From: a bacterium BMS3Bbin08
GTDB lineage: Bacteria; Nitrospirota; Thermodesulfovibrionia; UBA6902; BMS3Bbin08
Reading direction: 5' to 3'
Assembly: GCA_002897775.1 (NCBI GenBank)
Contig: BDTR01000030.1
Coordinates: 62,001-126,000 of the forward strand
DNA length: 64,000 nt
The notes under the pieces are model-generated. The model was not told the origin of the DNA, ran no database searches, and worked only from the letters and a program-made list of their open reading frames with translations. This document shows positions 22,038 through 28,082 of the stretch, piece by piece. A program made the position numbers and the translations under genes. Within the stretch, counting starts at the first letter, position 1. Each line of letters starts with the position of its first letter.

Positions 22038-22799
22038 CTATGCGGCTGACTTTCCCCTGCCCCGGGGGTATAAGGACAGGTCGGTCCTGCAGACAGTGGG
22101 CCTGTAAGAGGAAAGATCAAGTATGCCGACTTTCTTCTCAAGTGTCTTTGCCACGCGTGACATGCTGAAGCAGACAACAAAGAACCCAATAGCCATGCAT
22201 AAATATGAAGCGAACATTCTGTCCGGCTGGCGCTGGCTTATGATCACACCGGCCTGCGTAAGATCAATAACGCCGATAATATAGATAACAGAGGTCTCTT
22301 TAAAAAGCGATATAAAAAAACTCACAAAAGACGGCAGCATCATCCTGAATGCCTGAGGCAGGATCACTGTTCTGGCGGCCTGAAAGCGGGTCATGCCGCT
22401 TGATAACGCGGCCTCCATCTGGCCCCTTGGCACTGCCAGTATACCGCCCCTGACGATCTCAGCCTGGTAAGCGGTGGAATAGATGGACAGGGCTATTACA
22501 GAGCTCCAGAACAGAGAGATGTTCGTGCCGAGCACGCTGGGTATGAATAAAAAGAACCAGAAGACCAGCAGAAGAGCGGGTGTTGCCCTGACAAACTCAA
22601 TATATATAATGCATGGGTAACTGATATACCTTCTGCATGAAAGCCTGCCCATGCCGAAGATCGCGCCTATGAAAAAACTTATTATCATGCACAACAGGGC
22701 TATGGCAATGTTTATGGAAAGCCCGCCCAGCGGACCCTTGGGATAGGCGCCTATAAGATAGAATTTCCAGTTGCCGAACTGCTCAATAAGAAAGTCCAT
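22038..22799 (-). CDS. Polar amino-acid ABC transporter permease (GltK/HisM-like)
   Basis: 253 residues with five membrane segments and the EAA loop (EAALSSGMTRFQAARTVILPQAFRMMLPS), plus YIEFVRATPALL, as in HisMQ/GltJK permeases of the polar amino-acid uptake family. ATG start 1 base after the TAA of the preceding permease, with AGGA before it. It pairs with the other permease and the ATPase. The last residues (YRPTVCRTDLSLYPRGRG) are beyond the usual family end. Substrate is probably a polar amino acid such as glutamate or glutamine. Confidence 0.9.
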   Translation of the reverse strand: MDFLIEQFGNWKFYLIGAYPKGPLGGLSINIAIALLCMIISFFIGAIFGMGRLSCRRYISYPCIIYIEFVRATPALLLVFWFFLFIPSVLGTNISLFWSSVIALSIYSTAYQAEIVRGGILAVPRGQMEAALSSGMTRFQAARTVILPQAFRMMLPSFVSFFISLFKETSVIYIIGVIDLTQAGVIISQRQPDRMFASYLCMAIGFFVVCFSMSRVAKTLEKKVGILDLSSYRPTVCRTDLSLYPRGRGKSAA

Positions 22800-22800
22800 T

Positions 22801-23535
22801 TTATCCTGTTTCCATGTGAGTTATGCTCTCAATGTCGATCTTAAGGTATTTTTCAAGTATGATAATAACGCCCCCGATGGACAGGGAGACCACGATATAG
22901 AAAGCAGTTGCAAGGGTCGTGGCTTCAAGACCTCTGAACGTAAGTGATTCTATCTGCTGGGTCGCCCAGGTCAGTTCAGGTGCGGTTATAGCCATGCACA
23001 GGGATGAGTTCTTGAAATTATGTATCATCCTGGTTCCAAGAGGAGGCAGTATCTTCCGAAAGGTTTGAGGAAGAAGCACGTACCGATATTGCTGGATACG
23101 GCTCAGCCCGGTCGATATAGCGGCTTCTCTCTGGCCCGGGGGTACCGCGAGCAGGCCGCTTCTTATAATGTCGGATACATAGGAGGCATTGTCAAAAGTC
23201 AGGGCTATTATGCTGGCTACTATCGGGAAATATATGTACGCGTTCAGCTTTTCTCCGAGGCCGGAAGGGAGTATCTCGGGGAAGACAAAGTAAAAAAATA
23301 ACAGCCAGAGCAGGCCGGGTATATTGCGAAAGGTTTCCACATATAGTCCGCCCAGGGCACGCAGAGGTGTTATTCTTGATTTTCTCATTACCGCGATAAG
23401 TGTGCCAAGCAGCAGGGACATTACAGAGGTGACCACGGCTATGAGCACGGTCACCTTGATCCCTGTGATCATCCATCCGAGATAAGGTTCTCTGAACGGG
23501 ATGCTCCAGTCGAATTCGTATTTCAGGTTAAAAAT
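22801..23535 (-). CDS. Polar amino-acid ABC transporter permease (GltJ-like), apparent ATT start
   Basis: HisMQ-type permease with the EAA loop REAAISTGLSRIQQYRYVLLPQTFRKILPP and YVETFRNIPGLL. The first ATG is at 23472, but the frame upstream codes for the normal N-terminus of this family (YEFDWSIPFREPYLGW) and has no ATG, GTG or TTG in it. An ATT at 23535-23533 lies 6 bases after a GGGAGG ribosome site that overlaps the end of the ATPase gene. So translation probably starts at ATT (or another near-cognate codon), giving 244 residues. If it starts at the ATG, the protein lacks ~21 conserved residues. Confidence 0.8.
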   Translation of the reverse strand: MFNLKYEFDWSIPFREPYLGWMITGIKVTVLIAVVTSVMSLLLGTLIAVMRKSRITPLRALGGLYVETFRNIPGLLWLLFFYFVFPEILPSGLGEKLNAYIYFPIVASIIALTFDNASYVSDIIRSGLLAVPPGQREAAISTGLSRIQQYRYVLLPQTFRKILPPLGTRMIHNFKNSSLCMAITAPELTWATQQIESLTFRGLEATTLATAFYIVVSLSIGGVIIILEKYLKIDIESITHMETG

Positions 23536-23537
23536 AT

Positions 23538-24311
23538 TTATCCTCCCTCTTCCGGTTTGTCCTCATGATTGTTGTTGGCAACAGGGATATGAAGCACTTT
23601 GCTCATAAATTCCCTGGTCCTTTGATGTTTGGGTTTTGTGAACATGTCCAGCGTGCCGCCTATTTCCAGGATCTCGCCGTTGTCCATGAAGATTATCCTG
23701 TTGGCAACGCTCCGGGCAAAACCCATTTCATGAGTGATTACGATCATGGTCATACCTTCCCGCGCGAGCGAGGTCATGACATCAAGGACCTCGTTTATGA
23801 GTTCAGGGTCAAGAGCTGATGTCGGCTCGTCAAAAAGCATTATCCTGGGTTCCATCGCAAGGCTTCTCGCGATCGCGACACGCTGCTGTTCACCGCCTGA
23901 AAGCTGAATGGGGTATGCGTCGGATTTGTGCGCGAGCCCGACCTTTTTAAGAAGTTCAAGGGATCTTTCTGTTGCTTTTTTCTTGCTGAGCCCCCGTACT
24001 TTTTGCGGCGCCAGCATTATATTTTTTAGCGCGGTCCTGTGGGGATACAGGTTGAAGTGCTGAAAGACCATGCCTATTTCCGCCCTCAGGGCCGTCAGGT
24101 CTGTCTTCGGGTCCATCAGGTTAAAACCGTCAACGATTATTTCACCCTGGTCTATGGGCTCAAGTTTATTAATGGTCCTGATAAGCGTGCTTTTGCCGGC
24201 CCCGCTCGGGCCGCATATCACAACAACCTCACCCCTGGAGATCTCAAGCGTGATATCTTTAAGCACCTGATGGTCTCCGAACCACTTGTTGACATTGGTG
24301 AACTTGATCAA
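23538..24311 (-). CDS. Polar amino-acid ABC transporter ATP-binding protein
   Basis: 257 residues with Walker [12 protein letters not shown]-loop [11 protein letters not shown], signature [16 protein letters not shown], Walker [15 protein letters not shown] and the H-loop TH. Close to GlnQ/ArtP/HisP ATPases. TTG start with AGGAGG 7 bases upstream. First gene of a three-gene transporter operon (ATPase, two permeases). No periplasmic binding-protein gene is present within the operon or nearby. The promoter with overlapping inverted repeat lies directly upstream. Confidence 0.95.
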
Positions 24312-27922: not shown

Positions 27923-28082
27923 CTTGAGGCTCTTGTCAAGCCTTTCGTAGATCAGCGGAAGGTCTTTTTCAACGCCTAGTTCTAATTCGAACGTAACCGT
28001 ATATCGTCCCCTTAAAATAGATTGAGCAAGCTCGTTTTCAAATCATAACAGGAAATCAGATAAAATTCAAAGTGTGTAAAGA

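Follow-up and report, generated by a model that had tools for sequence, protein, structure and literature searches.

In Escherichia coli, pcnB, the gene of poly(A) polymerase, starts with AUU. As described by Binns and Masters (2002), this start restricts the amount of protein, which is also what we propose below for perm1, a permease gene with an AUU start, although pcnB is not a permease gene set beside an ATPase stop codon. The classic case of feedback by IF3 is infC, with an AUU start in E. coli, AUC in Streptomyces, and AUA in Staphylococcus aureus (PMC5472188, PMC13009471). Like perm1, infC joins an AUN-type start outside AUG, GUG, and UUG to a good Shine-Dalgarno (SD) sequence, but the perm1 product is a membrane permease, which cannot feed back on IF3, and infC in the window's order starts with AUA, unlike the AUU of perm1. 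Closer in kind are cvfC1 (AUU) and ccpN (AUA) of S. aureus, the starts of which are reported to have been demonstrated by ribosome profiling and to give reporter values near 10% of those with AUG (PMC13009471). As presented there, both resemble perm1 in pairing a conserved AUU or AUA with a strong extended SD, yet they are other genes in another phylum, and the perm1 AUU, known from sequence comparison, spans 16 genera and shows a trade-off between ATG and the SD. For sigR of Streptomyces, a GTC start is described as kept in 32 of 34 species, repressed by IF3, and setting the ratio of neighbouring operon genes (PMC5472188). Here, the conserved odd start is shared with perm1, whereas the codon (GTC or GTT), the product (a sigma factor), and the experimental demonstration given in the account of sigR are not. 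Lastly, AUU has been proposed for lepA of Borrelia burgdorferi and Bacillus licheniformis (PMC1780047), where, as for perm1, the argument came from a missing N-terminus; unlike perm1, this concerns two isolated species, and order-wide conservation is not reported in the accessible portion of that paper. Among the matches listed from the open-access literature, none, judged by title and the start of the abstract, deals with an AUU start in an amino-acid permease gene or an ACG start in phoH. The remark in an earlier note on this DNA, that odd starts of the AUU kind normally signal regulation through IF3, is sound as background, as far as the discussion of such starts in PMC5472188 goes.

The perm1 gene lies in the window (the whole 64,000-nucleotide stretch of DNA that was analysed) within an importer of gene order glnQ-perm1-perm2, the successive starts of which are TTG, ATT, and ATG (Table 1). 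Its product scores 66.7 bits against PF00528 (cut-off 26.4) and 63.4 bits against TIGR01726 (HEQRo_perm_3TM; cut-off 42.2), and by these profile matches it is a permease of a polar-amino-acid ABC importer of the His/Glu/Gln/Arg/opine type. It stays below the equivalog cut-offs (GltK, 129 versus 318; GlnP, 117.4 versus 303) and therefore no substrate is assigned; the neighbouring ATPase likewise scores 342.8 bits against NCBIfam GlnQ, under the cut-off of 379. The perm1 frame (minus strand) closes with a stop codon at 22803-22801, one base beyond which stands the perm2 ATG. Upstream, it extends no further than 23562, and no ATG, GTG, or TTG occurs in it ahead of the ATG at 23472, just as the earlier note had said, and the GGGAGG that it had placed six bases before the ATT at 23535 was found at 23547-23542, with ATAAAT as the spacer. 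The glnQ stop codon (TAA, 23540-23538) is separated from the ATT by two bases. After the ATT come TTT AAC CTG AAA and then YEFDWSIPFREPYLGW, so that the conserved family N-terminus, noted earlier as lying upstream of the first ATG, is indeed present in frame. Read from the ATT, the frame encodes Ile first, where the protein itself would be expected to carry Met, and runs on to FNLKYEFDWSIPFR; a start at ATG 23472 would drop the conserved segment YEFDWSIPFREPYL.

Table 1. Features of the perm1 and phoH loci, in positions of the window.
Feature	Position	Strand	Basis or remark
perm1, first permease of polar-amino-acid ABC importer	22801..23535	-	244 codons counted from ATT
ATT (AUU) initiation codon of perm1	23533..23535	-	sequence and orthologue conservation
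Shine-Dalgarno GGGAGG, within the last glnQ codons	23542..23547	-	anti-SD duplex -11.4 kcal/mol
ATG, codon 22, first in-frame standard start of perm1	23470..23472	-	probably internal methionine
glnQ-like ATPase gene, TTG start	23538..24311	-	best NCBIfam match GlnQ
perm2, second permease, ATG start	22038..22799	-	PF00528 75.5 bits
phoH (ybeZ-like), read from ACG, 325 codons	27023..28000	-	PF02562 PhoH 319.5 bits
ACG initiation codon of phoH	27998..28000	-	aligned-position conservation
Shine-Dalgarno-like AAGGGGA before phoH ACG	28007..28013	-	sequence

To identify orthologs, perm1 was searched for in 120 relatives, and 64 genomes gave a match; the named counterparts are metagenome-assembled Nitrospirota, several of them titled Thermodesulfovibrionia. 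Matches as close as about 58-81% identity came only from the window's order, whereas a different order contributed two genomes, at 40%; within the order, four genomes gave no match and one (G007) had only a weak paralogue. Within the order, 41 genomes supplied the 47 readable N-termini that were compared, with locus L043 (genome G037) excluded from the counts for its missing N-terminus. In G037 (L043/L090), the element upstream of perm1 is kept, and either decay or an assembly fault may be involved. A further observation concerns a paralogous importer, the second permease of which is part of a fused open frame of about 1360 codons, together with 4Fe-4S and molybdopterin oxidoreductase domains, in G039 and G032 (L088, 3823-6714; L091, 3739-6714), and alike in G046, as judged by open-frame length. 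Since one of these genomes is a single-contig assembly, an artefact is unlikely.

It was by comparison of such sequences that the start codon of perm1, its conservation, the onset of coding, the trade-off with the SD, and the standard starts of the neighbours were established. The alignment of orthologues, proposed in the earlier note as the way to see which start codon is used, gave ATT in 28, ATC in 2, and ATG in 17 of the 47 genes, the ATT being spread over 23 genomes and 16 genera. Ahead of the conserved YEFDW, 27 of the 47 genes offer no ATG, GTG, or TTG in their open frame, and these carry ATT (26 genes) or ATC (one), which bears out the original claim that perm1 starts at ATT. The start is less certain in three of the 30 ATT/ATC genes, where a standard codon lies nearby (L004, GTG; L015, a TTG directly following the ATC; L044, GTG). 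Moreover, six genes (L002, L015, L023, L032, L046, and L049) have an in-frame stop two codons before the ATT or ATC, and therefore no start is possible further upstream. In Proteobacteria and Firmicutes, all ten of the more distant homologues (L092-L100, L102) carry ATG or GTG no more than a few codons ahead of the motif, and the same procedure returned standard starts for the control genes perm2 (44/44) and glnQ (25/25, of which 16 use TTG, the start also seen in the window).

The possibility that the ATT is merely a conserved isoleucine codon can be judged from codon usage. In the body of the ATT/ATC perm1 genes, isoleucine is written ATT 216, ATC 244, and ATA 317 times, and other well-conserved isoleucine columns are mixed in codon, yet ATA never occurs at the start position. 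Across 25 aligned rows, the minor-base fractions at the three codon positions were 0.135/0.088/0.429 over the 19 codons after the ATT and 0.465/0.44/0.485 over the eight before it, and thus the coding periodicity begins at the ATT. Furthermore, where an ATG stands two codons upstream (15 genes), the aligned codon is TTT in six, TTC in five, ATC in two, and ATT and ATA in one each; the old codon drifts because the upstream ATG removes the need for it as a start. From these comparisons, the AUU start of perm1 is very probably real.

Translation might instead begin at the internal ATG at 23472, leaving the upstream frame untranslated. This ATG is the choice of any start prediction confined to ATG, GTG, and TTG, 21 of the 27 genes that lack a standard start possess an ATG as codon 20 or 21 (numbering from 0), and the nearest solved relative (4yms) aligns from profile position 18 onward only. 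Even so, codons 1-19 are conserved at the protein level, the same segment is contained in the ATG-start relatives, and the strong SD is located at the ATT rather than at the internal ATG. In the remaining six of the 27, moreover, no standard codon follows until codon 38, 57, 59, or 73; these positions fall in or beyond the first membrane helix (as read from sequence), so that part of the protein would be lost. We consider an internal start very unlikely and reject it on these grounds. Less credible still is an ATG hidden by a sequencing or assembly error, for which one could cite the metagenomic origin of the assemblies and the T5 run that follows the start; the recurrence of ATT in the 23 genomes and 16 genera, from many separate projects, refutes it and leaves a practically negligible chance. 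A third reading has perm1 made as a GlnQ fusion, through frameshifting or stop-codon read-through, and it draws on the many genomes in which glnQ and perm1 abut or overlap. The frame relation, however, varies among genomes (gaps of 2, 3, -8, -13, 14, 15, 19, 23, and 60 nt), which rules out fusion by frameshift, and glnQ is missing upstream of some ATT genes; the fusion, too, was rejected as exceedingly improbable.

With the AUU taken as the start, its position relative to glnQ is often close. The glnQ stop codon falls within -13 to +3 nt of the perm1 start in 19 of the 30 ATT/ATC genes, and the SD, the stop, and the AUU are commonly packed into some 15 nt, an arrangement that would suit termination and re-initiation. 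Coupling to glnQ as a requirement was rejected, since five ATT genes lack a close glnQ: three have none in the DNA read (L040, L044, and L045), and in two it is distant (L024, 258 nt; the second L034 copy, 3.6 kb). The site thus functions by itself as well. L004 extends past the end of its contig. In the ATG clade, perm1 is usually preceded by a binding-protein gene, at a distance of at least about 100 nt.

More conspicuously, start codon and SD strength go together. The SD core is mostly 6-8 nt ahead of the ATT, and the duplex energy with the anti-SD ranges from -12.1 to -6.1 kcal/mol (mean -10.7) in the 30 ATT/ATC genes against -5.8 to +1.9 kcal/mol (mean -0.84) in the 17 ATG genes. The two ranges do not overlap; all 30 ATT/ATC genes have an SD at -6.1 kcal/mol or stronger, and none of the 17 ATG genes pairs its start with a strong SD (Mann-Whitney p = 1.5e-8, a value that ignores kinship). 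On a perm1 tree of 46 rows (start region left out, midpoint root), three changes between ATT/ATC and ATG suffice, with ATT on both sides of the root. Taking a strong SD as one below -7 kcal/mol, it went with ATT in 2.6 of three independent pairs (mean over random pairings) and never with ATG, but with only three independent changes significance is out of reach, and the trade-off on the tree is not significant (sign test, median p 0.25). Such a trade-off would be expected if the product must stay scarce, whether through an inefficient codon or through a weak landing site for the ribosome. Many of the ATG-start genes (L018, L019, L027-L029, L033, L036, and others), which are without an SD, share GGGTAATATTTATAA-like DNA about 10-25 nt before the ATG, which may belong to the promoter of an mRNA with a short leader or none. 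A conserved RNA structure between -35 and +40 of perm1 was set aside: a weak consensus helix (-3.6 kcal/mol) pairs the SD with the start region, a value for which column shuffling is a poor control and which comes with no covariation shown.

A second odd start is found in the window itself, at phoH, where no standard start precedes codon 27 (numbered from the ACG). Of 51 aligned loci from the class, 46 retain ACG at this position, 40 of them lacking a nearby standard codon, and it is preceded by SD-like purines in surrounding DNA that varies freely. Outside the class (20 loci of the phylum), ACG is at the aligned start (position 0) in L284 and L293 only, which belong to one family; a standard codon (ATG, GTG, or TTG) lies close by in most of the other loci, accompanied by a nearby ACG in L285 and L289, and several could not be aligned (L287, L291, L292, and L298 among them). 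As for the initiation factor, 42 of the order's 47 genomes contain IF3, which gave no match in the window's own assembly, where an assembly gap is the probable cause. The infC start in the order is ATA in 27 of 28 readable loci and ATC in the other; a separate reading of 30 loci gave 29 ATA and one ATC, and 25 readable loci of other orders gave ATA alone in 22, ATA with an upstream GTG in two, and an unclear start in one. In all, 56 infC loci were taken (L103-L132, L254-L279), three of which were not read. ATA is thus found almost throughout the class, the ATC being that of L107. Judging from these alignments, the window's genome appears to keep at least two genes with different odd starts, to which the order adds a third.

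Neither an odd initiator tRNA nor a general use of ATT accounts for the perm1 start. In the window's genome, ARAGORN was applied to 40 of 43 tRNA places (the other three, at 82-84 nt, are of Leu/Ser/Tyr size); three tRNAs have the anticodon CAT, one of which (L222) is an ordinary initiator-like tRNA, and no initiator with another anticodon was noticed among those 40. The first explanation was rejected accordingly. Likewise, in 301,584 nt of this genome (262 genes called with a crude caller), an SD precedes 7 of 334 in-frame ATT codons, which is background level, versus 50 of 380 ATG codons. General use of ATT as a start was rejected on this basis, and the odd starts are hence gene-specific.

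Gene-specific codons invite the reading that the AUU is a sensor, linking permease synthesis to free IF3 and hence to translation capacity as in infC, with perm1, phoH (ACG), and infC (AUA) forming a small IF3-tuned set. Each of the latter two keeps its own codon (infC ATA in 27 of 28 loci of the order, phoH ACG in 46 of 51 of the class), and IF3 control of a conserved odd start is reported for sigR (PMC5472188). On the other hand, the three genes differ in their codons and may be unconnected instances, and IF3 rejects any such codon, so that sensitivity to it could be a side effect. We regard the sensor as possible but doubtful, and give only tentative standing to the related suggestion that these gene-specific starts together constitute a natural IF3 regulon that predates the genera carrying it.

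Our preferred reading, which we hold to be likely though well short of certain, is that perm1 is translated from an AUU kept by selection and that the AUU together with the strong SD acts as a throttle, keeping the permease scarcer than its ATPase. The strong SD is placed within the terminal part of glnQ, in most cases next to the stop codon of that gene or overlapping it, and under this proposal ribosomes finishing glnQ, or arriving fresh, would be held there. The fMet-tRNA would then be placed on the AUU with low efficiency, most attempts being expected to be rejected by IF3, and the pair of strong SD and AUU would hold the permease below the ATPase in amount. For perm1, we infer the low efficiency, the discrimination by IF3, the re-initiation, and the purpose of dosage balance. 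There is a precedent in S. aureus, where the output from AUU and AUA starts with a strong SD is reported to be about 10% of that from AUG (PMC13009471). Overexpressed IF3 is described as decreasing re-initiation in E. coli (PMC2268962). In the ATG lineages, which are without a strong SD, low output seems to be maintained by other means. A weaker SD could equally well cut perm1 output, and so the throttle alone leaves the choice of AUU unexplained. Still, the conserved AUU with its strong SD suggests that the cell deliberately limits the amount of permease.

AUU starts as such are already known (infC, pcnB, and cvfC1), and what makes perm1 notable is the depth of its conservation and the trade-off with the SD. 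Bacteria almost never use AUU and the genes known to start with it are few, yet in perm1, from a group of uncultured bacteria, it is maintained through an order. The gene also offers a built-in evolutionary control, in the form of ATG lineages with a weak SD and a drifting old start codon, and it illustrates that start prediction restricted to ATG, GTG, and TTG truncates real, conserved N-termini. If the odd starts do form an IF3 regulon, amino-acid uptake, RNA metabolism, and IF3 itself would come under one control of initiation fidelity. With perm1, it becomes testable whether bacteria employ odd starts to fix the proportions of subunits or to connect genes with IF3.
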